Shown piece by piece: positions 1-18,948 of a stretch of 54,066 bases of DNA. Under the pieces are notes generated by a model. It worked only from the letters and a program-made list of their open reading frames with translations, searched no databases and had not been told where the DNA came from. The position numbers and the translations under genes were made by a program. This DNA is from a virus, in the IMG/VR virus record IMGVR_UViG_3300042519_001321, positions 1-54,066 of that record; one strand, 5' to 3'. The stretch's first letter is position 1. Every line of letters starts with the position of its first letter.

Positions 1-599
1 TCGCCCCATCCGCAACTATAAATACCCTTTTCTTTTAAGTTGTTATCATCGAGAATCTTTTTTGTAAAATAAATTCGTTCTTTTCTAGCTAGTCTGCCTA
101 AACTTAAATAATAATATGATCTATTTTTAGAGGTAGTATTATGTTCTGTAGGATACCCAGCAGTATGATTATTATTTAATATTTGAAAAAACATGTTTCC
201 GGTCTTATGAAATATTTCAATATCGTCAACATGAGCATAAATGAACCCTGCGGTTAAACCACCATCAACCCATATAATTTTTTTGTAGCCATAGTTTTTA
301 ATAATGTCAAAAACAACATTCCAATAAACAGAATTAAGTGCTTCACTTAGATAACCAACCATAATGTAATCTTTTTTAGGCAGTTTCTCTAACGCAGCCC
401 GAGTGTATGCAGGCATGCTAAATTCTGTCATGCATTGATAATCTATAATATTAAAAGTCTCTGTATTATCTAATAAATTATATAATTCATTGTAACCTTG
501 ATCACAATAAATGATATCGATACCTTGGCGAGTGACGCCTTTAGTTAACCGGAACGGATCAGGTAGTACTCCTGTTACATTATTAGTCTCAGTATTCAT
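1..599 (-). CDS. Possible glycosyltransferase-like protein, C-terminus cut by window edge
   Basis: An open frame starts at an ATG at 599 and runs to the left edge without a stop, giving about 199 residues of N-terminal sequence. A GGA seven bases before the ATG could serve as ribosome binding site. The ATG overlaps the last 11 bases of the upstream radical SAM gene, so translation is probably coupled. I see no catalytic motif. The last visible stretch, around residues 155-199 (the segment LSLGRLARKERIYF followed by GIYSCGWG), resembles the middle of the protein at 3160-4317 (FVGRPNFQKNIIVKWY), so both may belong to one unannotated phage family that looks like GT-B glycosyltransferases. That relationship is judged by eye. 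The gene is the last visible member of the enzyme cassette. Confidence 0.75.
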   Translation of the reverse strand, partial: MNTETNNVTGVLPDPFRLTKGVTRQGIDIIYCDQGYNELYNLLDNTETFNIIDYQCMTEFSMPAYTRAALEKLPKKDYIMVGYLSEALNSVYWNVVFDIIKNYGYKKIIWVDGGLTAGFIYAHVDDIEIFHKTGNMFFQILNNNHTAGYPTEHNTTSKNRSYYYLSLGRLARKERIYFTKKILDDNNLKEKGIYSCGWG

Positions 600-1833
600 G
601 TTTAAATCCGTATTTCTCTACCATTTCTATTAGTTCAGGAAAAACAGTTCGCCAAGTTAAATTAGCAGGATGCTCACGTTGCTTATCGAGTTGATCATTA
701 TACTTGCAGAATTGCTCCCACTTAGTCTCATCCCAACTGTCATTTTCAAATAACCCTGTTATATTTGAAAAATGCACACCGTTACCATATTTTCCGTTTC
801 TATATTTTGTAATAATTTCTTTTCTTACTTCAGGTGGTAGTACAGCCGGACTTAAAAAGTCTGGATCATAAACAAAGTTCATGTCAACAGGTACTTGTGC
901 CCAATCTAAAAATTCTTCTAGATAAGCAAAATTGTATGCACTAACAGTTTGCGTGATTCGCACAGTTAACTCAGTCTGCATTAACGTATTTAAATTGTTT
1001 CTAACGTCAGCCCAATATGTAGGATAACGTATATAATGATTGCGAATATTTAAATCGTCGATACTAGGACATACACGAGTTTCTTTAAATTCACTCCACA
1101 GTGGAATAGCTTGCTCTGGTAAGTTAGTCATATTGATGTTGTACCACAGTGTGATATTCTTACTGCGACCGCTTTCTACTAGCTTGCGTAAGTATTTCCA
1201 GTGAGCTTTAATCAGTGTAGGCTCACCGCCGTTAATGTATAGTACTTCCATGTTAGGCGCACAGTTATACAAGTCTTCATAGAACGCATCATCTTCAGGC
1301 CACCTGAAGTCATTCTTGTGATCTAACCAACTATAGCCGTCATTTACGAAATCAAGCGTTTCAACCAATTCTTTATAGTCACGGCGCCATTGACTACTAC
1401 TTGCTGGATTGCAAGTGCGACACCGAACATTGCAAACATTGCCAAGCCTAAGCTCAACAAAACGCAAATCAAGAGGAATGCCCCCGTTAGCGTCAGTACT
1501 GCTAGCAGCCCAAGAAAGGCTTCTGTGAGGGTACTGTTCGATTTCATGTACACGTTTGCTGCGTATTCCCTTATCTTCTTCATCATAACACCTCGTACAC
1601 GCAGCAGGTTTTTCATCATTTAACATCTGCTGCCTAATTTCTTTGAAATAATCACTGTTCATGTGAGTATCGATATTGTGATCATTTAAGTTAAAAAACT
1701 CATCACGATCGTTTCCGTAGTTTCTAGCGCGGTTCTTTCCGGCGGTGTGGTCGCTAATACAACATGGTGTGACTCCCCCGTGAGGGTGAGTGCCTAAATG
1801 TATCCATGGTAGAGGACAGTAGGTTTTACTCAT
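589..1833 (-). CDS. Radical SAM protein with N-terminal SPASM/twitch-like cysteines (paralogue 1)
   Basis: This 414-residue protein has the radical SAM signature CxxxCxxC at Cys134, Cys138 and Cys141, which binds the catalytic [4Fe-4S] cluster, followed by a GGEPT motif near residue 202 that normally contacts SAM. Before the core are four further conserved cysteine positions: Cys6 in CPLPW, the Cys24-Cys25 pair, and Cys79 and Cys82 in CTRCYDEE. They resemble half of a SPASM/twitch auxiliary cluster domain, which in most families lies after the core. The C-terminus carries WRTVFPEL (about 394-401), shared with other paralogues here. The ATG overlaps the stop of the preceding radical SAM gene by four bases (ATGA). 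The substrate is unknown; the family performs radical chemistry on peptides, sugars and other molecules. Confidence 0.92.
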   Translation of the reverse strand: MSKTYCPLPWIHLGTHPHGGVTPCCISDHTAGKNRARNYGNDRDEFFNLNDHNIDTHMNSDYFKEIRQQMLNDEKPAACTRCYDEEDKGIRSKRVHEIEQYPHRSLSWAASSTDANGGIPLDLRFVELRLGNVCNVRCRTCNPASSSQWRRDYKELVETLDFVNDGYSWLDHKNDFRWPEDDAFYEDLYNCAPNMEVLYINGGEPTLIKAHWKYLRKLVESGRSKNITLWYNINMTNLPEQAIPLWSEFKETRVCPSIDDLNIRNHYIRYPTYWADVRNNLNTLMQTELTVRITQTVSAYNFAYLEEFLDWAQVPVDMNFVYDPDFLSPAVLPPEVRKEIITKYRNGKYGNGVHFSNITGLFENDSWDETKWEQFCKYNDQLDKQREHPANLTWRTVFPELIEMVEKYGFKHEY

Positions 1834-3167
1834 ATAAATGAACCTTTAGCTACAGCGCCGTATTTAGGATCAGCTAATGCTTTAGCATAATGAAAATCGT
1901 AATCAAAATAAGGTTTGATTATTTCGTATAGCTCGGGGAATGTTGTTCTAAAGTCCTCTCCCCTATATAGATCACCAGCAACTATTTGTTGCATAAACAT
2001 TCTACGGCGGACTGCCATCTCGGTTTCTACTGTAATATTTGGATCGGGTACATCACTCCAGTCGCGCATTGGTATAACAACTTCTTCTAACGGTGTCAGC
2101 ACATGATTAATAATACCTTTAATCTGCCCTTCAATTGATGGATTAGGAAAAGTTATATTTTGTAACGGCGCAACAATACGTGATTTTACGAATTCTTCAA
2201 ACACATTACTGTTGTACCAGCTAGGGAAATGAACCATGTTAAAGAAAATTTCAAAGTTAGGCCAGCGAGTTGAGAATACATCAATATATTCTTTAAGGTA
2301 CATAACATTCATTGCAGACACAGTACATGTGATGCTTACGTAAATTTCTTTGTTTGTGTGTAATGTATGGAAGTGATCTAAATTAGCACTAACAATATCC
2401 CAATCTGCTCCGTGACGGAGATATTCGAAACGTTCTTTTGATGCTGCATCAATACTAACACCAAATCCTACATCTTTGAAGTTTGCAATCAATTTACCTA
2501 CTAGATCTGTATGCAGTTGTGTACCGTTTGTACTAAAGTTTAGAGCAATATCTTTAGAAATTCCGCGGTCAATAAGTTTTTCTGCAAAGGCTTTAAACTC
2601 TTTCATGTACAGAGGTTCGCCGCCCATAATTTCTAGATACTTAATATCCTTAATCCAGTCGTCCATCTCAGTCCAAAACTTTGCATTTTCCATGTCGTCC
2701 ATAGGAATTTGCACCGTTTCTTTTAAATATGGTAAGCCGCGATCTTCTGATTCTTTGACCCACTTACTGCTGTAGTTAGGATTGCAGGTTCTGCATTTGA
2801 TATTACATGTTGTTCCTAAGATGAGCTGAAAATCCTGTGGCATTTCTGGTTCAACAGAATAATCAATTTCTTCATAGCGCCATTTAGCATAGCCATTATA
2901 CATTTCACGCTTAGACTGTTTACCATTTGCTTCATCTTGCCAACAGTGTTTACAATTTGTAGGTAATTTTCCTTCGCGAATTTCTTGGCGAATGTTTTTA
3001 TAGTAGTCGCTGTGGAAAATATCCCTTACGCTAGTACTGCCCAAAGTAAACGGATCACCGTTTGTGTCGTAGACCCGCTCTTGTGCGATGCAGCAAGTCC
3101 TTACAAAACCGCCAGGTTCGTTGCTCATGTGCTTCCAGAGCAAGCTACAATATCTAGGTTCAGACAT
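1830..3167 (-). CDS. Radical SAM protein with N-terminal SPASM/twitch-like cysteines (paralogue 2)
   Basis: The protein has 445 residues. The radical SAM CxxxCxxC is at Cys121, Cys125 and Cys128 (CNIKCRTCNP) and the SAM-contacting GGEPL is near residue 182. The N-terminal auxiliary cysteines are Cys7, the pair Cys25-Cys26, and Cys72 with Cys75 (CKHCWQDE). The C-terminal part contains FRTTFPELYEII, matching the FPE motif of the neighbouring paralogue. The start ATG overlaps the end of the glycosyltransferase-like gene by eight bases and the stop overlaps the next radical SAM gene by four, so the genes are tightly coupled. Group membership by layout is closest to the gene at 589-1833. Substrate unknown. 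Confidence 0.92.
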   Translation of the reverse strand: MSEPRYCSLLWKHMSNEPGGFVRTCCIAQERVYDTNGDPFTLGSTSVRDIFHSDYYKNIRQEIREGKLPTNCKHCWQDEANGKQSKREMYNGYAKWRYEEIDYSVEPEMPQDFQLILGTTCNIKCRTCNPNYSSKWVKESEDRGLPYLKETVQIPMDDMENAKFWTEMDDWIKDIKYLEIMGGEPLYMKEFKAFAEKLIDRGISKDIALNFSTNGTQLHTDLVGKLIANFKDVGFGVSIDAASKERFEYLRHGADWDIVSANLDHFHTLHTNKEIYVSITCTVSAMNVMYLKEYIDVFSTRWPNFEIFFNMVHFPSWYNSNVFEEFVKSRIVAPLQNITFPNPSIEGQIKGIINHVLTPLEEVVIPMRDWSDVPDPNITVETEMAVRRRMFMQQIVAGDLYRGEDFRTTFPELYEIIKPYFDYDFHYAKALADPKYGAVAKGSFI

Positions 3168-4317
3168 CTACTAATTCCTCTTTTTCATTATAAATCTTGT
3201 AAGCTAGGTTATAATTATAATCTAAAATTTCTTGTACTTGTGGTGATTGAATTCTTTCCTGCAATTCACTAAAAGACATAGACAGTGTTGATTCAACTTG
3301 ATCAAGTATAGCAGTTAGCCTGTCATAAAAATTTTCTATACTATCATAACTTTCATCAAACAAAATTCCATCAAATGTTTTAAATCCCCAAGATTTAAAT
3401 TGTTTTAGTGAATGAGGCATACCAAGTCGAATAAATGGAACTTTTAATAATACACATTTAAACGTTTTTTCTGATATCATATCTTCCTTCCACCATTTAT
3501 TGGCTTGTTTAAACCTCAAGTAGTCATCGTAATTATTAAAGTCTTCGTTTTCTAAATAGTCAACAGTAAAATTAAATAATCCTTTAGAAAAATACGAACT
3601 AAATTTAGTTGAGTCGCCACCCCAAGGTAATGTTAGATCGGGATGTTCTTGTTTTCCTGTTTCAACAGAACCAGGTAGTTCTTTAAGTTTTTCAACATTA
3701 ATATTTAAACTACTAGGTGGTGTATAGTTATCATATAAAAATGTTGAAACAATATCATGTTCTAATAAAGAATCCTTAATAGTATCTAAATACCATTTTA
3801 CGATGATATTTTTTTGAAAATTAGGTCTCCCAACAAACATCGACATTTTTTTATCTGCAATAGTAGATGACTTAGTGTACCCGCGGTCTATAAGTTTTGC
3901 TAACCAGAATCTTTTACTTTGACTTTTAACTGTCATTCTGTTAGTAATAGAATTTTTGTCGCACCAATTATTATAAGTTTCTCTGCCATATACATTAGAT
4001 GTTAATAGTATTATATTTGTAATATTAAACTTTAGTTTTGCAGATAAATTATGTAAAAATTCAAACCACGATAGTTCTTTTTTTAAATGAATATGATCAG
4101 TATTTAAAAATGTTATAGGTTCATGGATATAGTCTAGTATTATATTTTTGTTAGGAAATTTTATACTTACTTCTTCGAGTAGTTTTTTTAATTTAAATTC
4201 AATATTGCCCTTACAATTAAAAAGAAACCCACCATGCAAATTAACATAATAAGAAGTTAGGGGAGAGTGAACTCCCCTAACTCTCATGTTTTTTGTTATT
4301 GCTTTTTGCAATAACAT
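3160..4317 (-). CDS. Possible GT-B-like glycosyltransferase of an unannotated phage family
   Basis: The 385-residue protein has no motif that proves its function. Its middle (about residues 160-190, MFVGRPNFQKN) and C-terminal third (SEKTFKCVLLKVPF, then GFKTFDGILFDESYD) follow a pattern I associate with unannotated proteins in glycan clusters of large phages, whose layout recalls the donor-binding half of GT-B glycosyltransferases. It sits between the nucleotide-sugar dehydrogenase, with which it shares a TAATG stop/start, and a radical SAM gene, which it overlaps by eight bases. That context supports a role in glycan assembly. The assignment is an inference. The partial gene at the left edge may be a paralogue. 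Confidence 0.8.
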   Translation of the reverse strand: MLLQKAITKNMRVRGVHSPLTSYYVNLHGGFLFNCKGNIEFKLKKLLEEVSIKFPNKNIILDYIHEPITFLNTDHIHLKKELSWFEFLHNLSAKLKFNITNIILLTSNVYGRETYNNWCDKNSITNRMTVKSQSKRFWLAKLIDRGYTKSSTIADKKMSMFVGRPNFQKNIIVKWYLDTIKDSLLEHDIVSTFLYDNYTPPSSLNINVEKLKELPGSVETGKQEHPDLTLPWGGDSTKFSSYFSKGLFNFTVDYLENEDFNNYDDYLRFKQANKWWKEDMISEKTFKCVLLKVPFIRLGMPHSLKQFKSWGFKTFDGILFDESYDSIENFYDRLTAILDQVESTLSMSFSELQERIQSPQVQEILDYNYNLAYKIYNEKEELVDV

Positions 4318-5600
4318 TATCTAGTATTGCCATAATGAACAACAGTTACACCCTCTAAGTGCGGTGTCTTACGCCATGGATCAACCACAACACTGCTAGC
4401 AGCAAAGTTAAGAGCTGTGCCATTAGCTGTTGCTACCGTGAGTGCTTCATCAGCACCGGTAACTCGATGATCAGCATACCAACCTTTTACAAAGTCTAGC
4501 TGTTCACCGTAAGTGATCTGCGGATTGTGTGCTAGTAAATAAACTGCCGGGCTAGATAGAACGTCAGCCGGAGGTACTTCTCCCATTACTTCATCTAAAT
4601 AATAAAGTTTAGCACCTAGCTGTTCTACATAATGTCCAACTAACATACTACTACTACCGGCATCATACGGTACTAAAGGCTTGTATGCTTTACCTACAAT
4701 AATAACAGGCTTGCCGTCAGCAAGTTCAACTAACTTTTTAGCCATGTTTTCTGCTTGTACTTCACGTGAGCGCATCACAGCGTCAAATAAGTCGTAGCCT
4801 AAGTCTAGCCTTTCAGCTAGATGACGTAGTGCAATATTATCGCGAGGATGACATGCACCACCATCGCCCATACCAGGCTTCATGTAACCAGGTCCCATAA
4901 TGCGTCTGTCGCTTGATGCTAGTGCATCGCAAACTACTTCGGCATTAACATGACCTAGCTTCTCTGCTACGTCTTGAATCATATTTACTAGACTTACTTT
5001 AGCACTAATAAATGTATTATAGAACACTTTAATACACTCGGTTTCCTCCCACGTGCCAATGATATAACGTGGTTCGTTCTGCATAATAGTCTTGTAGAAG
5101 TCTACAAGTTCCTTTGCATCACCTGTTTCACTGCCATCTTCTGTGCCGATCATAACCATTTCTGGGTTAACCATGTCCCACTTAACAGTACCCATAGCAA
5201 TTAAGTACGGGTTATAAATGAAACGTGCATTAGTTATTAATGGTTGCAATTGACTGCGAACTGTACCTGGTAGCACAGTCGAAATAAGAACAATTAACTG
5301 AGAGGGGGTTGCAACAGCATTTACCTGACGTAGTACATCTTTAACTACACTGTAGTCAAAGTCTTTGTTGGGTAAATGGCTGGTAGGTGCTTTGCCATCA
5401 TATTGTGGGTCATGCGGCGTTTCCACTGCAATGAATACAATATCTTGCCCTTGCACCGCCTGCTCTAAGTTGGGGACCATCTTAAAGTTTTCTGGGGTGC
5501 GGGCAGAGATATCGTACCCTACAACATCATGTACCTCGGCAACCATCTCGGCGCAGGCTTGTCCTAACTTGCCTACTCCAATAAATCCGATTGAGGCCAT
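4317..5600 (-). CDS. UDP-glucose/GDP-mannose dehydrogenase family protein
   Basis: The family oxidises the C6 hydroxyl of a nucleotide sugar to a uronic acid in two NAD-dependent steps. The 427-residue protein opens with a Rossmann GxGxxG (GVGKLG, residues 8-13). The middle has IKVFYNTF around Lys191-Asn195, matching the conserved Lys/Asn segment of UDP-glucose dehydrogenases, and the catalytic cysteine is Cys250 in GGACHPRD, corresponding to the usual GGSCFPKD. The C-terminal third is the UDP-binding domain, with LVGKAYKPLVPYD-like features. An AGGAG lies just before the ATG. A late-promoter-like box at 5644-5651 precedes it, so it probably heads the last transcript of the cassette. UDP-glucose is the most likely substrate but GDP-mannose or UDP-HexNAc cannot be excluded. 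Confidence 0.9.
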   Translation of the reverse strand: MASIGFIGVGKLGQACAEMVAEVHDVVGYDISARTPENFKMVPNLEQAVQGQDIVFIAVETPHDPQYDGKAPTSHLPNKDFDYSVVKDVLRQVNAVATPSQLIVLISTVLPGTVRSQLQPLITNARFIYNPYLIAMGTVKWDMVNPEMVMIGTEDGSETGDAKELVDFYKTIMQNEPRYIIGTWEETECIKVFYNTFISAKVSLVNMIQDVAEKLGHVNAEVVCDALASSDRRIMGPGYMKPGMGDGGACHPRDNIALRHLAERLDLGYDLFDAVMRSREVQAENMAKKLVELADGKPVIIVGKAYKPLVPYDAGSSSMLVGHYVEQLGAKLYYLDEVMGEVPPADVLSSPAVYLLAHNPQITYGEQLDFVKGWYADHRVTGADEALTVATANGTALNFAASSVVVDPWRKTPHLEGVTVVHYGNTR

Positions 5601-5622
5601 TTGTATCTCCTAATTTTTTAAA

Positions 5623-5638
5623 TACAGTTTTAACTGTA
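5623..5638. repeat. Short inverted repeat in the dehydrogenase leader
   Basis: TACAGTT and AACTGTA form a perfect seven-base inverted repeat separated by two bases. It lies between the late-promoter box at 5644-5651 and the start codon at 5600. It could be a protein binding site or a weak RNA hairpin; two bases are too few for a tight RNA loop without opening the top pair. Confidence 0.45.
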
Positions 5639-5643
5639 CGCAA

Positions 5644-5651
5644 TATTTATC
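5644..5651 (-). promoter_or_regulatory. T4-like late promoter box (GATAAATA)
   Basis: The minus strand reads GATAAATA, which fits the NATAAATA late-promoter pattern of T4-like cyanophages. It lies in the 69-base gap between the radical SAM gene ending at 5670 and the dehydrogenase starting at 5600, and leaves a leader of roughly 38 bases containing an AGGAG ribosome binding site. The position in one of the few intergenic gaps of the cassette supports function. Confidence 0.65.
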
Positions 5652-5669
5652 AGGAGATTTTTATATTGT

Positions 5670-7064
5670 TTAATGTTTTGGTTCACGCATCCACCAATCA
5701 TACAACTCTGGATCAGCAGCATATATGTTTTCGATACGTAGGGGCTGATCAGGACGGATATCAGCAATCTTATCCTGCCAGTTACGTCCTTTAAAAAATG
5801 ATTCTTCTGCCTGATCGGGCCACTGTTCTTGGAACGTAGGTGTTACTAGCATATTCTCTAATTCACGTATTAGAGTCTGTTGCTTGTGTGTAGCTCTAGG
5901 CACAATGTAATCTAAATTATCTTTGATAATACGATCTAAAATGTGCCGCGGTAATGCCATAGGACTGAATACGATATCAGGGTGGAACGCAAACATACGT
6001 TTAGTTTCAATCTTAACATCTAGTTCCAGTGCATAGTTAAAGAAGGTTTTAAGGTCAAACAGGCCTGGACCTGTTAGTGTAAGATCCATAAGCATACGAT
6101 CTTTGCCACCGGGTAATGCCACACCTTCTCGGAAGTTCTGGTCCCATTCTTTCCATTTAAGTCCAGTACGAACAAATTCACCGATAGACCCAGTGCCATC
6201 AATACTAGCACACATAGTCCAATCTTTAGCTTTAGGTAGCCAATCGTACAAATAATGATTATTAAATCTAATTCTGCTTAAGTTACTATTATAGCGCAAA
6301 TGTACTTTCTTTAAATTATCATCTTGTGCAAGTCGATCCATAGCACGCCAATGTATGTCGTACATTAATGGCTCTCCGCCAACCCAATAAATTTCTTCTA
6401 CAACTCCACTGCAAATAGCAGCCCAAAATTCTTCCTCAACTACTTCTTTTTGGAATCGGTTAATGATTGTCTTATTCTCCGGGACCATAAAGGGCTGATT
6501 GGTTGAGTTCCATAATCCGTGCTTTCGTTTCTCTGCTTCCCAGCTCGACGAAAGAGGCTCACCACACGTACGACACTTAAAATTGCATAAATTACTGACC
6601 CTATAGTCAAAGCTAATAGGAACCATATTAGTACGTCCATCATCATCTGTCTCCTCAAATGCTTGTTCTATTTTATCTTTAAATAGAAATCCTGTAAACC
6701 ATTGGCGATATGTGCTTTGACTTAGAATACTGTCGTTGCACACTGCACACTGGGGGATTGTTTCACCAGCCATTAGCTTCTTGCGAATATCCATCATATA
6801 GGGACTATTCCAGTGCTCGTCTAGGCTAATGGGTTTGTAATCATCGATAGTACCCACATCCTTGTACTTACCAGTGCTTTTATCATTGCTAGCGTCAATG
6901 TATTGACGCTGCATCATGTGTTCTTCCCGACTAGCACAACACATTCTACGCTCGCTCTGCGGACTAATATATGTATGTGTCCATGGTGCCATGCAGAATG
7001 TTCTGTTAGGTGACTCAGGGCTCATTTGCCCGTGTTCCCAAATTGGTTTAATTTTGTTTGTCAT
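5670..7064 (-). CDS. Radical SAM protein with N-terminal SPASM/twitch-like cysteines (paralogue 3)
   Basis: The protein has 464 residues. The radical SAM motif is Cys160, Cys164 and Cys167 (CNFKCRTCGEP), and GGEPL follows in YWVGGEPLMYD. The N-terminal module is Cys24 in CMAPW, the pair Cys42-Cys43, and Cys106 with Cys109 in CAVC. It resembles paralogues 1 and 2 but has a longer N-terminal extension, an insert before the core, and a diverged C-terminal end in which the FPE motif has become ADPELYDWW. The ATG overlaps the Smr-like gene by four bases (ATGA). It is probably the last gene of the transcript beginning near 14153. Confidence 0.92.
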   Translation of the reverse strand: MTNKIKPIWEHGQMSPESPNRTFCMAPWTHTYISPQSERRMCCASREEHMMQRQYIDASNDKSTGKYKDVGTIDDYKPISLDEHWNSPYMMDIRKKLMAGETIPQCAVCNDSILSQSTYRQWFTGFLFKDKIEQAFEETDDDGRTNMVPISFDYRVSNLCNFKCRTCGEPLSSSWEAEKRKHGLWNSTNQPFMVPENKTIINRFQKEVVEEEFWAAICSGVVEEIYWVGGEPLMYDIHWRAMDRLAQDDNLKKVHLRYNSNLSRIRFNNHYLYDWLPKAKDWTMCASIDGTGSIGEFVRTGLKWKEWDQNFREGVALPGGKDRMLMDLTLTGPGLFDLKTFFNYALELDVKIETKRMFAFHPDIVFSPMALPRHILDRIIKDNLDYIVPRATHKQQTLIRELENMLVTPTFQEQWPDQAEESFFKGRNWQDKIADIRPDQPLRIENIYAADPELYDWWMREPKH

Positions 7065-7282
7065 ATCTTATATATATCTATTATACCGTATTGAACCATA
7101 GTAGTTGTTGCTATGTTATGTTTCTTAACTACATCGAGTACTAAGTCAATCATTTTTTGACTGTTGCCGCAGATAATTTTTAGTGGTAATATATCTTGAT
7201 TCATAAAAATGAAATTCTCTACAAGTCGATCTACTTCATGGTGCCGTATTCCGTGTAAATCAAGTATATTGTTGTTATCCAT
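7061..7282 (-). CDS. Small Smr-domain-like protein
   Basis: The 73-residue protein consists almost only of a segment resembling an Smr (small MutS-related) domain: LDLHGIRHHEVDRLVENFI matches the conserved LDLHG helix, and IICGNSQKM stands where the family has a HGxG loop. That loop is altered, so nuclease activity is doubtful. Smr domains nick DNA or cut RNA in other proteins. The gene overlaps the NeuB-like gene upstream by eight bases and the radical SAM gene downstream by four, so it is embedded in the cassette; its role there is unknown. Confidence 0.7.
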   Translation of the reverse strand: MDNNNILDLHGIRHHEVDRLVENFIFMNQDILPLKIICGNSQKMIDLVLDVVKKHNIATTTMVQYGIIDIYKI

Positions 7283-8012
7283 TAGCTGCTGCCAATATTT
7301 CTAAGTTTTTAAAAAAGTCATAAAACTGCTGTGGAGTAAGAATACTAGTGTTATCGCTATCTTCGTCACCTAAATACTTTTCAATATAGTCTACGTTCTT
7401 ATACGCAACTGCTACACTAGGAAACACACCCTGATCTTTACTTTCGTAACCCACTATATATGTCTTCTTTAGCAGTTGATCTATATTATGTAGTTTCAAA
7501 TCTTCTAATTTAGGAGGAAAATCATCTGTTGTGTAATACACTGTTACTTTATGTTTGTGCGGAAATAAAACATTAGCATCTTCTAAGTGCTTATAATTAA
7601 AAATAATTTTACTAAAATTATCTTTACAAAAACGACTAAGCTCATAAATGTTTATTGCACTGTGATGTAATTTTATAGTTGTAGCATTGCAGTATTCTTT
7701 AACAAACTCTGCTGCTGCACTATCAGTTACGCTCCATATTACTGGGATACCAATTTGATCTGCAAGTTTAGCAACACGTGAAGCAGTCTCCTTATCGAGC
7801 TCACTTCTTTTAGCTACTTCTATATAAGGCAAATGCCCCCAGCGACTGGGTATCGAAACATATTTTTTATTCTCGTCTATAAGCAATGTAGGAGTACTTT
7901 TAGTAATAACAACAGCATCAGCATTACACTGTGCTGCTGCTATTAGCCGCGTTTCTAGCACATTGATATCATTTTCGTGCCCTACTCCTATATTTGCGTA
8001 TAGCTTAACCAT
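7275..8012 (-). CDS. NeuB-like (sialic-acid-synthase family) protein, truncated
   Basis: The 245-residue protein has the layout of the N-terminal TIM barrel of N-acetylneuraminate synthase and relatives, which condense phosphoenolpyruvate with an amino sugar. The start ANIGVGHENDINVLETRL, then AAAQCNADAVVITKS, parallels the family's IGxNHxGD and GADAVKFQ segments; SIPSRWG followed by RSEL and a later strand IPVIWSVTD also fit. It lacks the C-terminal SAF/antifreeze-like domain and about 100 residues of the usual length, and the metal and substrate residues are not all visible. It may be an active minimal form, a binding protein or a decayed enzyme. It overlaps both neighbours by eight bases. 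Confidence 0.65.
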   Translation of the reverse strand: MVKLYANIGVGHENDINVLETRLIAAAQCNADAVVITKSTPTLLIDENKKYVSIPSRWGHLPYIEVAKRSELDKETASRVAKLADQIGIPVIWSVTDSAAAEFVKEYCNATTIKLHHSAINIYELSRFCKDNFSKIIFNYKHLEDANVLFPHKHKVTVYYTTDDFPPKLEDLKLHNIDQLLKKTYIVGYESKDQGVFPSVAVAYKNVDYIEKYLGDEDSDNTSILTPQQFYDFFKNLEILAAANG

Positions 8013-9663
8013 CGCCCTCTACACCGCCTAAACCATCTGAGTCCGTATCCCATCCAATACTGCTGCCGCCGATTTTTTTAAGTACTTCGGCACGGGCCTC
8101 AGGATCTAACGGACTGTCGTACCAGTCAACGCTTTCTCCTGTTTTACGTTGGCGGATCCCTTGGACAACTACTTCACCATCTTCACTTACGGTACGATGT
8201 GCATAGATACTAGAGTCTTTAGGCTGTTGAATATCCTTTTCAGGTTTGTCAAGAGGAATTACGTTAATACCGTCATAGAACTCAACAAAGTCTGGGAAAG
8301 TTTCTCGGAAGTTTTTACTACGACGGGCATCATACTGTTCGTAGAATACTTTAAAGTCGTGTTCAAGTAATGCACGATCCGCAGTGTTGCGGTGTGGAGT
8401 CTTAACAACGTCTAAATATTCAATTAGACGACTAACTTGATCCTGTTCCCAAGGTTGAACTAACTGCAAACCATTTGCATCACGCTCATCTTTTTCGCGT
8501 ACATCGTTAAGCCAATCAAAAATTTCATCGTGATATTTTTTACGTAACTCATCTGGTAGCGTTAGAGGACTTTGGAAGCTGGGGAAGCGTAGAATATTAC
8601 AGGTAAATCCAGGACGATTGTGTCCGTACTTACGTTTCATTTCTAGCATCCAGTTAAAGAAATCTACAATGCTATGCAAACACAATGAATTAATTGTCAT
8701 CATCATATGCAAGCCTTCGATACGTGCTTCGCTGCAAATACGCTCAAAGTTATGCTTCCATTCTTCCCAGTTTAGACCATCACGAATATACTCAGCTTGC
8801 GGGCCAACAGACTCACAGCTAGTGTACAAGTGAAAACGTGGAATATGCTGTGTACCATCAATTAACTTGTCAATAAGTTCTTTCTTAGAACCTAAGTTAC
8901 TGTTAATAGCAAGACGCATCTTTTGCGCTTGCGGTGTGTCAGCATTTTCTCTGAACCAATCAAACAACTTGTAGATGTCAGGAGTCATTGTAGGTTCGCC
9001 GCCAGTGACACGAATTTCTTCTAGCTCCTTGGACAGCTCCGGCCACCAGCGCCAGAACGCATCCACATATGGATTAAATTCTTCTCTAGTAAATGGCTCT
9101 GCATACGGCGCATCGTCAATAAAGTGACCTCTAGCATCACTACGAATATTTTGATAGCCGCCGTTGTTACGAATGTCTTTGACCCATGTACTAGAGAAAG
9201 CAGGGTTGCAGTACGAACAAGCAAACTGGCACGTACGGTTAAATGCAATCTCAAGTGTCTTTAAGTTGACATCTTCATTAGGATTTAACTTAGCAATCTT
9301 CTTAAGGTCTTCGTCGTCATAGATAACAGTCTTATAGGTGCGGTCACTAACAGGCTCGTTGCCGTCGGCATCCTTGCCCATATCCTCAATCTTCCAGCAG
9401 TATTCACATTCCTTAGGACGCTTGCCCTCCTGCATCATTTCACGCATTTTCTTTTTGTGCTTAGTGTTATGAATTGCGCTAGGATTGTCCTTAAGTTCAG
9501 CAATATCAATGTTATGTGCAGGCGGGTGATGACAGCTAGTGGTGCCGCCATGGCCTAGCCAAATAGTAGCATTGTACCACTTAGCAGCACAGAAAGATTC
9601 ACTCACAGAGTCAATCATTCTCTTTTTAAATTCTCTGTGGCTTTCGCCCTGCTTACGTCCCAT
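8005..9663 (-). CDS. Radical SAM protein, CxHPP subgroup (paralogue 4)
   Basis: At 552 residues this is the longest radical SAM protein here. The core motif is Cys145, Cys149 and Cys152 (CQFACSYCNP), with VTGGEPTMT after it. The N-terminal auxiliary module is Cys25, Cys44 in CHHPP, and Cys86 with Cys89 (CEYCWKIED). It is clearly sister to the gene at 10382-11923: both share AKW, a CxHPP segment, a NPSA(I/L)HNT segment, EGKRP and the CxYCWxIED block. Near the end is NFRETFPDFVEFY, then about 80 additional acidic and glycine-rich residues not found in the others. The start is shared with the SGNH gene stop (TAATG). Confidence 0.92.
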   Translation of the reverse strand: MGRKQGESHREFKKRMIDSVSESFCAAKWYNATIWLGHGGTTSCHHPPAHNIDIAELKDNPSAIHNTKHKKKMREMMQEGKRPKECEYCWKIEDMGKDADGNEPVSDRTYKTVIYDDEDLKKIAKLNPNEDVNLKTLEIAFNRTCQFACSYCNPAFSSTWVKDIRNNGGYQNIRSDARGHFIDDAPYAEPFTREEFNPYVDAFWRWWPELSKELEEIRVTGGEPTMTPDIYKLFDWFRENADTPQAQKMRLAINSNLGSKKELIDKLIDGTQHIPRFHLYTSCESVGPQAEYIRDGLNWEEWKHNFERICSEARIEGLHMMMTINSLCLHSIVDFFNWMLEMKRKYGHNRPGFTCNILRFPSFQSPLTLPDELRKKYHDEIFDWLNDVREKDERDANGLQLVQPWEQDQVSRLIEYLDVVKTPHRNTADRALLEHDFKVFYEQYDARRSKNFRETFPDFVEFYDGINVIPLDKPEKDIQQPKDSSIYAHRTVSEDGEVVVQGIRQRKTGESVDWYDSPLDPEARAEVLKKIGGSSIGWDTDSDGLGGVEGDG

Positions 9664-10385
9664 TATGTGTCCTCTTCAATAATATTTCTTAACCGTGGCA
9701 TTAAATGTACGCGAGCCCAAACGGGCGTCGCTGACATTTGATCAGGGTGCATATCGTCTGCCAGTGGCAGATTTTGTTTTACACACCAATCTAGCATTTC
9801 ATCCTCAATAAACTGCACCTTATCTTTATTTAACAAGTGTCGTAGCATTGGCTTATCTTTCTCCGCTACCGCCAACTCCCATCCCAATGTGCATAGTACA
9901 TTATGGCCGGCTGCTGCTAGCAATACAATATGTGCTACTGTTTCTTGTAGCACTACTTCTGCTATACTCTGTAACCCGTAAGGGTCAACAATTTCACGCT
10001 CAAACGCATTTGCGTCCTGACATAACATAACCGAAAGTTTTTCTTTGTCAAAGACATTTGGTAATTGTCTTTGATATTGATATAATGGATCTGTGGATTT
10101 GTCCTTAAGGTTTTGTATCATGTTTATAGGACCAATCTGTATTTCGGGTGTTAACACTGTGTTGAATCTCGATACAGCATTAATTTCCCAAAAGAAAATG
10201 TCATCGCTGCCATATTCGTCTGACAACAAATAGTGTTGGAGTAGCAGTACCTGTGTACGATTGTTACCAGCACCGACTGCAAGATTGTGATATCCCAAAT
10301 TTAACTCTTGGCAAATTTGCCTAGCCCACGAAAACTTGAGATTATCAGCAGTAAGACTATCGCCTAGAAAAACAATCTTTCTCAT
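9663..10385 (-). CDS. SGNH/GDSL-type hydrolase-like protein
   Basis: The 240-residue protein starts with FLGDSLT, the block I of GDSL/SGNH esterases with nucleophile Ser10. The block II glycine and block III asparagine fit VGAGNN near residue 37-42, and the catalytic Asp-His pair fits DDMH at Asp210 and His213. Such enzymes remove or transfer acyl groups on carbohydrates and lipids. No signal peptide is visible, so it should act in the cytoplasm. It lies between the two sister radical SAM genes and is coupled to both (TAATG and ATGA), which suggests the three act on one product. Confidence 0.8.
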   Translation of the reverse strand: MRKIVFLGDSLTADNLKFSWARQICQELNLGYHNLAVGAGNNRTQVLLLQHYLLSDEYGSDDIFFWEINAVSRFNTVLTPEIQIGPINMIQNLKDKSTDPLYQYQRQLPNVFDKEKLSVMLCQDANAFEREIVDPYGLQSIAEVVLQETVAHIVLLAAAGHNVLCTLGWELAVAEKDKPMLRHLLNKDKVQFIEDEMLDWCVKQNLPLADDMHPDQMSATPVWARVHLMPRLRNIIEEDT

Positions 10386-11923
10386 CGTTCCACCAATGCT
10401 TCAGCTTCTTGGCAAATTTGCCACCAGTCTTCCATTTCTGGGAACACTGATAAAAAGTCTGTGTCTCTACGCTGATCATGTTGAGTAAAGAACTTGTAAA
10501 AATTGGCTCGCGCCTTTAGTACTTCTTCTTCACTTAACTTACTGCCCGCTTTCATCCATTCTAGGTTACGGCGTGCTTTATCAATTTCAAAGTCCTTAAA
10601 ACCTCTATAGTCAATGTACTGCTCGTTGGCAGCATTAAGTTCCATAAAAGCAATAGCTTCTTCTAAATAGTCCTGGTACCATTCTGGCATTACTTGTATG
10701 CACTGCCAGTGTGGTGCTCGCAGTAACGGAATATCAAACCAAATACGTTGCTTAGGACGTATCTCGTAATCTGGGTGCTTGTGCCCACCATTATCCGGTA
10801 CTGGTATATATTTAATGCCTTGGCGATCTTTTGCAAACTCTTCGCGGAGCTCTAGTATAAACTGTAGCCATTCACGGAAGCTGGTTAAGCTAAGTGCATT
10901 GAATGTATTAATAAATGTGATAGTAGTGTTGTCTGTTTCGCGTAATACACGCAACACATTTTTCTTTAGCACTTCAAAGTCCATGCCGTTACGCATATAC
11001 TCTGCTTGCTTACCATAACCATCACAGCTAACAAACACAGCAAAGTTCTTACAAGCCGGTGCTACATACCAGTTGTTTCCACTGTTCGGATTAAACTTCT
11101 GTGGATCTTCCCAAATTTGAATCTGTTCTAAACGCTGTAGCGATTCAATAAACTTATCCATTAGCTGTGGCTTTGGCGGAACCATGTTTGATGTTACACT
11201 CATCTCTAACCATGCGTTAGGATTAGCATACACATAGTCCAGTACCTTAAATGTGTTTACGTCCATTAGTGGCTCACCACCGGTCATACGAAACACTTCT
11301 AGATTCTTATACAGTTCAGGCCACCACTTCCAAAACGCTTCTACATATGGATTCTCATCCTGTGCTACACGCAATGGCATTAGTCCTGCACGAGCTAAAC
11401 TTTCTGTGTTGTTATGCTCGCCACCCACAATTTGATACGGTCCGTGGTCTTTGACTTCTTGATGCCAGCTAGTGCTAAGATGTGGGCTGCAATAGCTACA
11501 CTTAAAATTACAGGCTTGATTAAAGTTAACTTCCACATAGCGAGGATTGATATTACCCTCCCAACCAGCAGCCTTAATATCTTCTTTGGCGTTTTGTGCC
11601 CAATATTCACCACTGCGATAAATGCGATCACTGCGGCCACCTACATCTTCAATGCGCCAGCAATAGCTGCACCCAGCTGGACGTTTTCCTTCCAGCATAT
11701 CCTTACGCTGTTCTTTTTTCTCAGAAGTATTGTGCAGTGCGCTAGGATTAACAGCTAGTTCTTCTAAGTCAATTTTATGAGTAGGTGGGTGATAGCAACT
11801 GTGCGTCATGCCATTAGTAAGATGCATAGATACCTGCGCCCACTTTGCATAACACATAGTGGGACTAATTGCATCTAATTCTTTTTGAGCGGCATCAGCC
11901 GCTGTTTCATAATGACTGCTCAT
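10382..11923 (-). CDS. Radical SAM protein, CxHPP subgroup (paralogue 5)
   Basis: The 513-residue protein has CxxxCxxC at Cys138, Cys142 and Cys145 (CNFKCSYCSP) and MTGGEPLMD for SAM binding. The N-terminal module is Cys24, Cys43 in CYHPP, and Cys85 with Cys88 (CSYCWRIED). It closely parallels paralogue 4 across the N-terminal 160 residues, indicating a duplication, but carries an insert around residues 225-260 containing an IWEDPQKFNPNSG segment and a different C-terminal region before the shared end motif DFLSVFPEMEDWW. The ATG overlaps the SDR stop by four bases. Substrate unknown. Confidence 0.92.
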   Translation of the reverse strand: MSSHYETAADAAQKELDAISPTMCYAKWAQVSMHLTNGMTHSCYHPPTHKIDLEELAVNPSALHNTSEKKEQRKDMLEGKRPAGCSYCWRIEDVGGRSDRIYRSGEYWAQNAKEDIKAAGWEGNINPRYVEVNFNQACNFKCSYCSPHLSTSWHQEVKDHGPYQIVGGEHNNTESLARAGLMPLRVAQDENPYVEAFWKWWPELYKNLEVFRMTGGEPLMDVNTFKVLDYVYANPNAWLEMSVTSNMVPPKPQLMDKFIESLQRLEQIQIWEDPQKFNPNSGNNWYVAPACKNFAVFVSCDGYGKQAEYMRNGMDFEVLKKNVLRVLRETDNTTITFINTFNALSLTSFREWLQFILELREEFAKDRQGIKYIPVPDNGGHKHPDYEIRPKQRIWFDIPLLRAPHWQCIQVMPEWYQDYLEEAIAFMELNAANEQYIDYRGFKDFEIDKARRNLEWMKAGSKLSEEEVLKARANFYKFFTQHDQRRDTDFLSVFPEMEDWWQICQEAEALVER

Positions 11924-12576
11924 AACTTATCGTAATACCAACCGTTATCCATAAATTCAATGTGCTGCTGCCAGTCCATAACTACTTTATGCATGTATTC
12001 GCCCTTAACAACTGACCAAATTTGGTTGTCGTCGAAACCATCTTTTAAAAGATGGCTAGCAACAAGTTTAGCATATTTTTTCTTTGTTGTCAAGCTCATA
12101 TCACTTACACAACAACCAGCAACTGTTAATCCTTTATCTTTACCACCTATTGTAAAAATCAACTGTTGTTCTGAACCTCGTAATAATCTATATAAAATAG
12201 TATCAGGAAAAGTAGATTTATCATACGCTATACTACTGGTAGAAAACACAAATGTCCCGTTCATTTTATCTTCTAGGTATTTTAACAGTAATAGTTTAAA
12301 CCAAAATCCGACCTTCCAAGTATGCATGAACGTATTATATGTTTCTTTTTGCTCTGCTAAAGGCTTAGTATAATCAAAGTCTGAACTCTGAATATTTGCA
12401 TTAAAGAAAACTCGATCAGGTAATTCGTTAGTGTTAATAGAATTAATAAATTCCTCGGGTTTGCTATAATCTACATTGTGCCGCCCAAACTTAATTACCT
12501 CATGACCTGCTGATTCCAAATCTTCTATAATGTATGATGCATATTCAGACGATGCTCCAAAGAACCAATATTTCAT
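11920..12576 (-). CDS. Short-chain dehydrogenase/reductase-like protein, degenerate
   Basis: The protein has 218 residues from the ATG at 12576; the frame also allows a TTG seven codons upstream, but that lies inside the preceding gene. The N-terminus YWFFGASSEYAS matches the nucleotide-binding turn of SDR enzymes, VFFNANIQ takes the place of the NNAG motif and FSTSSIAYDK that of the catalytic serine strand. The expected YxxxK is not clear (LYRLLRGSEQQ), so redox activity is uncertain. SDR proteins of this extended kind often modify nucleotide sugars. The stop of the oxygenase-like gene is one base upstream of the ATG, and the end overlaps the radical SAM gene. Confidence 0.7.
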   Translation of the reverse strand: MKYWFFGASSEYASYIIEDLESAGHEVIKFGRHNVDYSKPEEFINSINTNELPDRVFFNANIQSSDFDYTKPLAEQKETYNTFMHTWKVGFWFKLLLLKYLEDKMNGTFVFSTSSIAYDKSTFPDTILYRLLRGSEQQLIFTIGGKDKGLTVAGCCVSDMSLTTKKKYAKLVASHLLKDGFDDNQIWSVVKGEYMHKVVMDWQQHIEFMDNGWYYDKL

Positions 12577-12577
12577 A

Positions 12578-13129
12578 TCAACTTTTAATCCTATCAAACA
12601 TCATTGAAATAGAAAATCTATCCTTTTTCTCTTTTTTGTTTAATCCTACGCTGTGAAAACTGTTGTTCGAAACTTTAAATAGTAAAAGTTGATTAGCTTT
12701 TCCGCCTACTTCAATTGGGTTGCTGCCGGTTATGTCTGAATGAAATGTTGTACCGCAAATATCATCTAAGTACAACACACCTCTTATAGGCACTGTTTCC
12801 CAGTGAGTATCGATGTGTATCGGAAATATATTATCAGCTGGCAGTATAGAAGCACTACATTTATTTTCTAAACACGCTTCATTCCATATAGTATTGATGG
12901 CTGTTAATATTAGTTTTTCATTATCTCTAAGTATGCCCATTAATGGATGATAGGAAAGTGAGAAATGATGCTCTAACGAATTATCAGTAATTGTGTAGTT
13001 TGATAAAAACATTTCATTATGTGATTTATCAAACAATACAGGATCAAAAAAGTCGTCGATCAAAATGTATTCTACATCATGACATAGCTTAACATTTTCT
13101 CGACAAATTTGACCAATTTTTGATAGCAT
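12578..13129 (-). CDS. 2-oxoglutarate/Fe(II)-dependent oxygenase-like protein
   Basis: The 183-residue protein shows the double-stranded beta-helix layout of 2OG-Fe(II) oxygenases. The iron ligands fit His105 and Asp107 in IHID and His159 in NNSFHSVG, and Arg171 in KKDRFSISMMF sits where the 2-oxoglutarate carboxylate is bound. GVLYLDD between them is a typical core strand. Such enzymes hydroxylate side chains, sugars or nucleobases. It is coupled to the glycosyltransferase-like gene upstream by TAATG and followed one base later by the SDR gene. Prolyl-4-hydroxylase-like proteins are common in T4-like marine phages; this one is shorter and more divergent. Confidence 0.78.
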   Translation of the reverse strand: MLSKIGQICRENVKLCHDVEYILIDDFFDPVLFDKSHNEMFLSNYTITDNSLEHHFSLSYHPLMGILRDNEKLILTAINTIWNEACLENKCSASILPADNIFPIHIDTHWETVPIRGVLYLDDICGTTFHSDITGSNPIEVGGKANQLLLFKVSNNSFHSVGLNKKEKKDRFSISMMFDRIKS

Positions 13130-14124
13130 TAAAGCAGCCCCTTTTCTAACAATTCTTGAATCTGCTGTTCACGAATCATTACGCCCCAACGACGCGGATT
13201 CACATACGTCTTTTTAAAGAACTTGCACATCTGTGGGTCTGGATTAAACAGCATCATTTCGTTAATGCTTTCGTTAAGTTCGTTGCCTAGCTTACAAATT
13301 TCTTCGTATAGTGCTTCTTTGCTCCATGCAAGTTTAGTATAACGACACACAATCGGTCCTGCAAACTGCGGTGCTACTTCTTTGTTGAAATAATCTTTGA
13401 ACCACTCGTAATCGGATATTAAATTTGTGTCCCAATCTGTTAGTACACTTAGCTTACAACCTAAACGTGCGCCGTAAATAGCCCATAGACCGTTTTCCAC
13501 ATCACTGCCAATGTTGCACCATGTCTGTAGTCTGTTATAGTTGCCCCACCAGATCTTGGTCTTGAATTCGTCGGCGCGAACACGTTTGCCCTGATCAAGG
13601 CTCATCTTTACGCCTTCTCTAAAGCCTGCGCGGAATGCCTGAAATGGACTTGCTGTTTGATGTACTTCGCTGAATGTATCGTTAAGCTGAATATAGTTTA
13701 ACTTCCAACAGAACTCCATGCCTTCGCCATCGCCTGCTGCTTCATGTGTTTGCATCTGTAGTGCATACTCTTTAGGCCAGCACTTTAGTCCGCCATTGCC
13801 ATACACTAACCCATTAAGTAAGTTTTTAGCGTTCCAGCTAAAGATGCTTTCGCTAATATTATTGCCGTCATGATCGGTATCAGGTACATCGAGTACTTGC
13901 TCAAAGAAGTCATCCATAACGATGTTGTCACCGTCTACAGTAATAAAACGTTCAGTTTCACTTTGGCGGGCGCACTCTTTATGGGCAGCGTCAAATCCTT
14001 TGACGCCGTGTACCCGCTTTGCCCATGGTACTTTGTTTAATAGATCTGCCCAGTTTTCTTCAGCATTGGGCTCATCGTAGGAGATATAGAAGATGTCTAA
14101 TTCGGTAACATCAATTTTTGCCAT
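13129..14124 (-). CDS. Glycosyltransferase-like protein (GT-A type)
   Basis: The 331-residue protein begins with a strand IFYISYDEPN and a ITVDGDN motif (Asp64-Asn67) that fits the metal-binding DxD of GT-A glycosyltransferases. Conserved-looking blocks follow: WPKEYALQM, SPFQAFRAGFREGVKMS and a late VNPRRWG. It resembles an unnamed family of phage and bacterial proteins that look like GT2 or GT25 relatives; I cannot name a sugar. A late-promoter box lies 29 bases upstream of the ATG, with AGGA as ribosome binding site, so this gene probably heads the transcript running to the radical SAM gene at 5670. Confidence 0.78.
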   Translation of the reverse strand: MAKIDVTELDIFYISYDEPNAEENWADLLNKVPWAKRVHGVKGFDAAHKECARQSETERFITVDGDNIVMDDFFEQVLDVPDTDHDGNNISESIFSWNAKNLLNGLVYGNGGLKCWPKEYALQMQTHEAAGDGEGMEFCWKLNYIQLNDTFSEVHQTASPFQAFRAGFREGVKMSLDQGKRVRADEFKTKIWWGNYNRLQTWCNIGSDVENGLWAIYGARLGCKLSVLTDWDTNLISDYEWFKDYFNKEVAPQFAGPIVCRYTKLAWSKEALYEEICKLGNELNESINEMMLFNPDPQMCKFFKKTYVNPRRWGVMIREQQIQELLEKGLL

Positions 14125-14139
14125 ATGTATGTCCTGTAA

Positions 14140-14784
14140 TTAAGTACGTACATATTTATCAAAGGCTTTTACGGTGTATATACTAGTTTGAGTTAGATCT
14201 GTTGCGGTGCTAATAGTAACAGTGTTTTCCAGTAATCGTTTTAAAGAAATATATTCACTGTGTATCATTATATGCGGGTTATTTGGTGCAGTAAAGTAGA
14301 ATTTGAGTACCTTTTGTCCGTTAACTGTAGCTGATATTGGGTCAATACTAGAATACTTTTCTATCGTATTTTTAGATAATGTTACCGTAAACACTGTCTT
14401 AGTTAAGTTGCACATACATTCATAGTCTGATGAATTAGTATCTATTAGAAGTAAAGAATTGTTTTCAGTTGATACTACTGCACTTTCTAATGGGCGTGAT
14501 TCTATACTATAAAGATTATCTACAAGCGGATCAATTTTAACATAAAACAAATTCCAATTGTTATTTTCTAAAATTTCTACCTGCTCATTACTAAATTCTT
14601 TGACCTGCCATCCTTCTTTAAGCGGCATATCCTCTTTGCTTATTGAAACTATTGTGCCGTCAGATAAAAAATACACCTTTGGTTGTTTAGCCAATTCCTG
14701 TCTAATAAGTCCAGCAAGGCCGCCTGCTGCGTCTTTAGCTGCTTGAAATCTTAAACGTCGCTCTTCTGCTTCTTTAGATACCAT
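14140..14784 (-). CDS. Unrecognised phage protein
   Basis: I do not recognise this 214-residue protein. Residues 1-40 are charged and alanine-rich (helical, EAEERRLRFQAAKDAAGG), then SDGTIVSISKEDMPLKEGW begins a beta-rich region. There is no signal peptide, membrane segment or catalytic motif. Its start overlaps the end of the GT8-like gene by 11 bases. Its last bases overlap a late-promoter box (14153-14160) used by the next gene, so it is the last gene of the upstream transcript. Confidence 0.75.
   Translation of the reverse strand: MVSKEAEERRLRFQAAKDAAGGLAGLIRQELAKQPKVYFLSDGTIVSISKEDMPLKEGWQVKEFSNEQVEILENNNWNLFYVKIDPLVDNLYSIESRPLESAVVSTENNSLLLIDTNSSDYECMCNLTKTVFTVTLSKNTIEKYSSIDPISATVNGQKVLKFYFTAPNNPHIMIHSEYISLKRLLENTVTISTATDLTQTSIYTVKAFDKYVRT
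14153..14160 (-). promoter_or_regulatory. T4-like late promoter box (GATAAATA)
   Basis: GATAAATA on the minus strand, overlapping the 3' end of the gene at 14140-14784 and 29 bases upstream of the ATG at 14124. The leader has an AGGA ribosome binding site. It is identical to the box at 5644-5651 and has a similar arrangement. Confidence 0.65.
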
Positions 14785-15649
14785 AGTCTTGTTCCATCTG
14801 TTTAATCATTTTAGCTGTGAGCCAGTTTTTTTCTACATAGTGAAATGGCAATAATTGTTGAAAGTTTCCTATTTTAAAGTCTTTGTAATTATTATAGTAA
14901 GTAGGTATAGTTTCAGACCAATTATGGCTTATTAATGATGTAGGCACGTTTTGTACATGGCTTTTCATATGTACAAAAGTCGGCACTGCATCAATATTTT
15001 CTCGAGTACACTCATGTTCGATACCTAGCAGTTGCATGGCTAGTGCAAACGCAACATCACCGCTGAGCCAATCTGGCTTGCCTTCAGGCATGTACTTGTA
15101 AAAGAAACGCTGCCAGTGTTGAAATATGATTTCTGTCATAGCAAACAATTCACTAGCTAATTCACTTTTCTTAAAATAAAAGAAAGCTGTGTACACATTA
15201 GGCAAGTTATTCTTTACAAAGTATTCGCGATAGTAATTACTACTAACAGTTTCTCCGCGAAATGTCCGCACTTTAGTAGTAGCCCATACATCACGTTGAC
15301 TTAATGTATCCCACCAGTGACTCACATCTGTAGGAAATAACATATCTGTGTCTAATATGACGGTTTCTTCATACGGAGACATATACAAATATTTCCACTT
15401 GTTATTGATTTTCCATTGTGAGTCTGCTGCGTCATCTTGCCAAGGAATGTCAACTATATAATCAAATACTTGCTTATGTTTGCTGGTAATTAGTTTCTTA
15501 GTTTCTGCATCCACACATACAGTTAGGTTATTAACTGTACTTTGAGTAAGCTTTAAGTTAAGTGCAAGAGCATAAGCCTGTTGAAGATAATCAACAGTCC
15601 CAGTGTTTTGTGCTATAACTATATAACCTTTACTTGTTGTCATATACAT
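14774..15649 (-). CDS. GT8-like glycosyltransferase (copy 1)
   Basis: The 291-residue protein has a GT-A fold pattern. SPYEETVILDTDML places the DxD metal-binding motif at Asp100-Asp102, preceded by an N-terminal strand YIVIAQNTGTVDYLQQA that resembles the nucleotide-binding start of family 8 enzymes. A second acidic-aromatic block, PDWLSGDVAFALAMQ, fits the acceptor side. It is a paralogue of the protein at 17228-18166: both share SPYEET followed by a D-x-D. The frame offers two ATGs, at 15649 and 15643; both lie inside the end of the SGNH gene, so coupling is likely. Donor sugar unknown. Confidence 0.82.
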   Translation of the reverse strand: MYMTTSKGYIVIAQNTGTVDYLQQAYALALNLKLTQSTVNNLTVCVDAETKKLITSKHKQVFDYIVDIPWQDDAADSQWKINNKWKYLYMSPYEETVILDTDMLFPTDVSHWWDTLSQRDVWATTKVRTFRGETVSSNYYREYFVKNNLPNVYTAFFYFKKSELASELFAMTEIIFQHWQRFFYKYMPEGKPDWLSGDVAFALAMQLLGIEHECTRENIDAVPTFVHMKSHVQNVPTSLISHNWSETIPTYYNNYKDFKIGNFQQLLPFHYVEKNWLTAKMIKQMEQDYGI

Positions 15650-18940: not shown

Positions 18941-18948
18941 TATTTATG
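18941..18948 (-). promoter_or_regulatory. Possible late promoter box (CATAAATA)
   Basis: CATAAATA on the minus strand overlaps the stop codon of the structural gene at 18944. No start codon with a useful frame lies between it and the terminator at 18835-18866, so if used it would make a transcript of about 100 bases without a protein. It may also be chance. Confidence 0.35.

Follow-up and report, generated by a model that had tools for sequence, protein, structure and literature searches.

What would a phage do with five different radical SAM enzymes encoded side by side? The question is raised by a 54-kb IMG/VR virus record, probably a fragment, whose whole stretch of 54,066 nt is called the window below. 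The initial annotation, made from the letters only, had read these five genes as a multi-step modification system acting on an unknown substrate. Here, the family of the proteins, their relatives in phages and bacteria, their neighbours and their putative control signals are considered in turn.

Gene content of the cassette

The five radical SAM ORFs, rS1 to rS5, are complete and co-directional on the minus strand of the window. They overlap neighbouring ORFs by a few bases or abut them, an arrangement that looks, in the sequence, as in a translationally coupled operon. The cassette and the adjoining fibre-like gene comprise the following features.

589-1833, minus: rS1, N-terminal-twitch radical SAM protein, CC type (NF033640 364.5 bits; structure model pLDDT 93.2)
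1830-3167, minus: rS2, N-terminal-twitch radical SAM protein, CC type (NF033640 296 bits)
3160-4317, minus: recurring protein with homologues in related cassettes; no family match among NCBIfam, Pfam and PHROG profiles
4317-5600, minus: UDP-sugar dehydrogenase-like protein, phrog_9148 (PHROG E 1e-97; Pfam UDPG_MGDP_dh)
5670-7064, minus: rS3, N-terminal-twitch radical SAM protein, CC type (NF033640 295.8 bits)
7061-7282, minus: 73-aa Smr-like fragment (weak Pfam Smr, below cut-off)
7275-8012, minus: NeuB-like protein (Pfam NeuB 44.6 bits, cut-off 22.1)
8005-9663, minus: rS4, N-terminal-twitch radical SAM protein, CxHPP type (NF033640 318.3 bits)
9663-10385, minus: GDSL/SGNH-like protein (weak Pfam Lipase_GDSL_2, below cut-off)
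10382-11923, minus: rS5, N-terminal-twitch radical SAM protein, CxHPP type (NF033640 321 bits)
11920-12597, minus: epimerase/SDR-like protein, optional in relatives (weak Pfam Epimerase, below cut-off)
12578-13129, minus: 2OG-Fe(II) oxygenase-like protein, optional in relatives (weak Pfam, below cut-off; HxD in the sequence)
13129-14124, minus: GT-A-like putative glycosyltransferase (model pLDDT 88.7; weak glycosyltransferase folds; linkage)
14140-14784, minus: 214-aa protein between transferases, recurring in relatives
14774-15649, minus: GT8-like glycosyltransferase (family profile against glycogenin, E 2e-5)
15630-16436, minus: SGNH-like protein (DUF6071), optional in relatives (Pfam 31.7 bits, cut-off 27)
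16445-17077, minus: class II aldolase-like protein, optional in relatives (Pfam Aldolase_II E 8.7e-29)
17228-18166, minus: GT8-like glycosyltransferase, homologue of 14774-15649 (hhalign E 2e-27 to that family)
18150-18509, minus: conserved 119-aa protein at the head of the transferase unit (alignment; gene order)
18944-19984, minus: fibre-like Ser/Thr/Gly-rich protein, candidate acceptor (alignment; always adjoins the cassette)

The cassette is preceded by ORFs of fibre-like and giant baseplate type, and rS1 lies next to the contig end; neither VrlC nor gp14, between which the pelagimyophage-type host recognition cluster lies, was recognised. In the structural region, positions 22285-43740 form a single open frame of 7151 aa, probably a giant baseplate or tail protein. 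Amid the minus-strand structural genes, a 157-aa ORF on the plus strand (48409-48882) has a gene-like composition.

A twitch module ahead of the radical SAM core

NCBIfam NF033640 (N_Twi_rSAM, "twitch domain-containing radical SAM protein") matches each of the five proteins from end to end, with 296-365 bits for a curated cut-off of 170 bits and E-values from 7e-109 to 5e-88. These E-values, together with the conservation of the cysteines, indicate that the five matches are not due to chance. We know of no function assigned to the family. The radical SAM motif CxxxCxxC is found in each of the five, and Pfam PF04055 scores two of them above its cut-off and three below. The cysteine pattern described in the initial annotation is present, with spacing verified by script: C6-x17-C24 (followed by C25), C79xxC82 and C134xxxC138xxC141 in rS1; C7, C25, C72, C75 and C121 in rS2; C24, C42, C106, C109 and C160 in rS3; C25-x18-C44, C86, C89 and C145 in rS4; C24-x18-C43, C85, C88 and C138 in rS5. 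Its division into CC (rS1-rS3) and CxHPP (rS4 and rS5) subgroups is real, rS4 and rS5 forming a superclade with an SH-aLRT support of 100. The C-terminal FxxxFPE motif, which three or four of the proteins were said to share, is strict in two only, rS2 (FRTTFPE) and rS5 (FLSVFPE); rS1 carries WRTVFPE, rS4 FRETFPD, and rS3 is devoid of the motif. Prokaryotic viperin (NF038283), an antiviral family, was considered as an identity for rS1-rS5 and rejected, with scores of 16-30 bits for a cut-off of 180.

In 18 diverse homologues, C6, C24, C25, C79, C82, C134, C138 and C141 of rS1 are invariant, and in a 95-row alignment the twitch and core cysteines are mostly invariant or at least 90% conserved. 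Neither alignment contains a conserved C-terminal cysteine. The canonical seven-cysteine SPASM motif was not found after the core of rS1-rS5, which have just four or five N-terminal cysteines; Pfam SPASM matches the N-terminus of three of the five. When a profile of the CC-type N-terminus alone is compared with 177,635 distinct PDB sequences, the best match is BtrN (E 3e-4), with C6, C24, C79 and C82 of rS1 aligned on C169, C187, C232 and C235. The matched region is the C-terminal twitch of BtrN, behind its core. Despite the modest E-value, this match is convincing because of the cysteine register and of the curated family. The CxHPP-type N-terminus has no direct PDB match; hhalign shows its homology with the CC type (E 2e-12). 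According to these alignments, the N-terminal cysteines of rS1-rS5 are assigned to a twitch module whose order with respect to the core is permuted. The auxiliary module that had been placed ahead of the core is thus borne out by NF033640, Pfam SPASM and the cysteine-on-cysteine alignment with BtrN, the profile search against SPASM and twitch families having put all five proteins, at full length, above the NF033640 cut-off.

The structure model of rS1 is confident. Its Foldseek alignments with SkfB, anSME, viperin, BlsE and MoaA have low TM-scores and are for the most part confined to the core. Such alignments would be expected for a permuted protein and are not proof of permutation. Since the best matches include the peptide modifiers SkfB, anSME and SuiB, and since the fibre-like gene is a constant neighbour, it may be envisaged that amino-acid residues of the fibre protein are the target of the radical SAM enzymes, in a RiPP-like maturation, the transferases glycosylating the same protein independently or afterwards. 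However, the Foldseek matches of rS1 are core-only, the secondary structure of its model includes no separate peptide-binding domain of the RRE type, the twitch of the rS proteins is of the four-cysteine BtrN kind, and the fibre-like gene is absent from 191 of 192 bacterial genomes. Modification of fibre residues is, in our opinion, rather improbable.

Old paralogues in a conserved order

In the tree, the five proteins of the window stand at five separate places. The rS3, rS1 and rS4 clades are supported (100, 98 and 99, respectively, as SH-aLRT values from a quick tree search) and each has Bdellovibrionota members. In this phylogeny rS1-rS5 appear as old, distinct paralogues belonging to separate deep clades, and a recent copy-number expansion is rejected. 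The initial annotation had likewise preferred successive enzymatic steps to duplication.

The order of the genes was followed in 77 viral loci anchored on rS4. The backbone runs from fibre-like genes through a small protein of the 18150 type, GT8-like, GT8-like, GT-A-like, rS5 and rS4 to rS3; then come either rS2 and rS1 or two other N_Twi lineages. Sets of N_Twi genes in a fixed order occur in dozens of viral contigs, with a maximum of eight genes in one locus of about 21 kb. The search for the same set in other phages, which had been suggested at the outset, thus returned linked and ordered sets, and in most relatives the genes are not unlinked singletons. A fibre-like gene of the 18944 type is always next to the cassette in viral loci.

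The 2OG, SGNH, aldolase and SDR genes are present or absent among close relatives, as may be expected in a hypervariable island, and one might see the radical SAM genes too as unrelated auxiliary genes that have accumulated there with no common pathway. This is very improbable in view of the GT8-GT8-GT-A-rS5-rS4-rS3 order, kept over a large divergence, and of the GT-A/radical SAM pairing, which recurs in bacterial chromosomes.

Variant cassettes also occur (L115, L118-L121, L125, L134 and L136), in which the GT-A-like gene is followed by the dehydrogenase gene, sometimes by a NeuB-like gene, and then by three to six N_Twi genes, none of them closely orthologous to rS1-rS5. Among isolate phages, a tblastn search with rS4 gave no match, and rS2 found distant KVP40-type Vibrio phages only; the rS2-anchored scan yielded two loci only. 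Vibrio phage K566 (OZ196521.1; L084, 8890-15626) has a cluster of four N_Twi-like genes, of which two exceed the NF033640 cut-off and two fall short of it.

Glycosyltransferase-like partners in phages and bacteria

The 14774 family is related by profile to glycogenin (GT8), and the 17228 family is its homologue. For the protein encoded at 13129, a profile comparison with PDB sequences gave no match; the best folds for its model are glycosyltransferases or related nucleotidyltransferases, weakly matched (TM 0.23-0.47). It is likely, from this model, to be a GT-A-like glycosyltransferase. Because the first viral scan was anchored on rS4, a second one, anchored on the GT-A-like gene, served as an independent check. 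It gave 80 viral loci, 53 of which extend at least 7 kb downstream: radical SAM genes follow in all 53, at least three of them in 47, these counts being descriptive because many loci of the two scans lie on the same contigs or are close relatives. None of the 80 loci has a radical SAM gene upstream of the GT-A-like gene. The GT-A-like protein is a constant partner of radical SAM genes in phages. Three viral loci (L048, L052 and L063) carry N_Twi genes without the transferases.

The bacterial sample comprised 192 genomes of one phylum, the Bdellovibrionota. NF033640 matches above cut-off are found in 54 of them, many genomes having several, clustered. One chromosome (G006, L216) brings together rS3-like, rS1-like, two rS4-like and rS5-like genes. 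A scan with five close rS1 rows gave one bacterial locus. The GT-A-like family occurs in 11 genomes, each of them one of the 54 N_Twi-bearing genomes (hypergeometric P 4e-7, with relatedness disregarded), and in eight of the 11 the gene lies within 4 kb of an N_Twi gene. Some bacterial clusters contain genes for a DegT aminotransferase, a dTDP-sugar isomerase, an epimerase, a GT2, a nucleotidyltransferase or a GDSL protein; others have housekeeping genes only, with no sugar genes nearby.

One bacterial contig (L226, G162:C21:122001-139884) displays the phage order at 9388-16378, namely fibre-like, small protein, GT8, GT8, GT-A and radical SAM, beside pheS/pheT-like genes and near the contig end. 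Fibre-like or 17228-type genes occur in this genome only (1/192). Phage transfer or mis-assembly is possible, and the locus is not used as proof because of its position at a contig end and its single occurrence. Next to N_Twi genes in the Bdellovibrionota clusters L209, L210, L214, L218, L220 and L226 there is another type of radical SAM-like protein, which has CNYKCSYCWPYARSD or a close variant of it as its motif.

Late-promoter-like motifs

The core of the T4 late promoter is ATAAATA. Three motifs of this kind are found in the cassette.

5644-5650, minus: ATAAATA late-promoter-like motif, upstream of the dehydrogenase gene
14153-14159, minus: ATAAATA late-promoter-like motif, upstream of the GT-A-like gene
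18823-18830, minus: TATAAATA late-promoter-like motif, in the gap before the transferase unit

In the viral loci, the cassette strand has ATAAATA 4.5 times as often as the opposite strand. The motif is found 90 bp or less ahead of the start, in most cases 25-50 bp, in 44% of the 18944 family, 40% of the dehydrogenase genes, 39% of the 18150 family, 31% of the 13129 family and 20% of the 20009 family, for about 1% expected by chance. As in T4-type late units, a TATAAATA-like motif is thus found just upstream of the unit heads in 20-44% of relatives. No ATAAATA was found within 90 bp upstream of rS5, rS1 or either GT8 gene in the viral loci. In the whole window, TATAAATA is rarer than chance (two copies, seven expected). 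ATAAATA is also depleted there, with eight copies found for about 24 expected, seven of the eight on the cassette strand and several just before genes. On sequence evidence only, the motif pattern suggests that the cassette would be in the same late class as the fibre genes.

Since cassette and fibre genes have this pattern in common, a role on the virion is favoured over an early role in the host. The alternative would be that the same enzymes modify a surface glycan of the host, such as the LPS O-chain, leading to exclusion of competing phages or to changed adsorption. For pelagimyophages, such a role has been proposed for the GT8 glycosyltransferases that this island encodes (PMC7029224), and O-chain synthesis typically involves GT8 and UGD-like genes. 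However, late-promoter-like motifs common with fibre genes are ill-suited to early exclusion, and the scanned cassette genes include none recognised as an export, flippase or polymerase gene. Modification of a host glycan is considered somewhat unlikely.

A possible decoration pathway

Glycosyltransferase-like and sugar-nucleotide enzymes, preceded by late-promoter-like motifs, constantly accompany the radical SAM genes. The substrate class, left unknown in the initial annotation, need therefore not remain entirely so, and we infer that the substrate is a sugar. A multi-step modification system remains the best reading. We favour, at somewhat less than an even chance, a late-expressed, multi-step surface decoration that a T4-like myophage would encode in its tail-fibre (host-recognition) island, the product being likeliest on the virion.

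In such a pathway, the UGD-like, NeuB-like and aldolase proteins, as enzymes of sugar-nucleotide type, would supply or modify building blocks, and the two GT8-like and the GT-A-like transferases would attach them. The N-terminal-twitch enzymes would then act as a relay, performing successive radical steps on the sugars placed by the transferases. A BtrN-like two-electron oxidation, a dehydration or an epimerisation are candidate chemistries, and the twitch cluster may be the electron acceptor, as proposed for BtrN (PMC9012708). The product would most probably be carried by the virion, the fibre-like protein 18944-19984 being the candidate acceptor. The fuller proposal, that the relay makes a radical-modified tail-fibre glycan late in infection with a transferase and radical SAM module common to Bdellovibrionota, is a possibility against which the balance of probability still tilts. 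The decoration reading is weakened by the bacterial clusters without sugar genes and the few viral loci without transferases, by the ability of twitch enzymes to act on peptides (SkfB), and by the weak fold matches on which the GT-A assignment of 13129 rests.

N_Twi enzymes occur widely, in the sampled Bdellovibrionota and in many aquatic phage contigs. Through its fixed transferase partner, the fixed order of its old paralogues and its late-promoter-like control, this orphan family becomes a pathway that can be tested, and Vibrio phage K566 offers a culturable isolate with a four-gene N_Twi cluster. If the product is on the virion, phages would use radical chemistry for self-decoration. To our knowledge, radical SAM chemistry would then be seen for the first time in virion maturation, and N_Twi proteins would gain their first function.

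Comparison with known systems

The permuted arrangement, first taken as new, is already that of the curated family NCBIfam NF033640, which has the same architecture as rS1-rS5 and an N-terminal twitch in its very name. Radical SAM cassettes in this phage region are not new either. Together with GT8 genes, they have been published for the tail-fibre island of T4-like marine phages (PMC7029224); that work, on the host recognition cluster of pelagimyophages, refers to the radical SAM genes simply as cassettes and proposes modification of the host O-chain for the transferases. The consulted part of PMC5332604 reports 12 radical SAM genes in the marine T4-like genome TARA_ERS488813_N000010, without giving the type and order of the enzymes; the window resembles this genome in its many genes of the kind. 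Unlike in the decoration reading made here, they are interpreted in that part as Fe-S cluster metabolism; a reading of rS1-rS5 as plain auxiliary genes of Fe-S metabolism was rejected. The present analysis adds the old paralogues in their fixed order, a transferase partner that is found in phages as well as in bacteria, the distribution of late-promoter-like motifs and the four-gene cluster of K566.

Among characterized enzymes, SkfB, a twitch RiPP maturase (PDB 6EFN), is the best Foldseek match and has a core and one twitch cluster, as predicted for rS1; it differs from rS1-rS5 by its C-terminal twitch, its N-terminal RRE and its peptide substrate. BtrN, the 2-deoxy-scyllo-inosamine dehydrogenase (PDB 4M7S/4M7T), resembles rS1 in associating a radical SAM core with a four-cysteine twitch. 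Its twitch ligates the cluster with four cysteines (PMC6231123), its substrate is an aminocyclitol, which resembles a sugar, and the role proposed for its cluster is that of electron acceptor (PMC9012708). However, the twitch of BtrN is behind the core, whereas that of rS1-rS5 is ahead of it.
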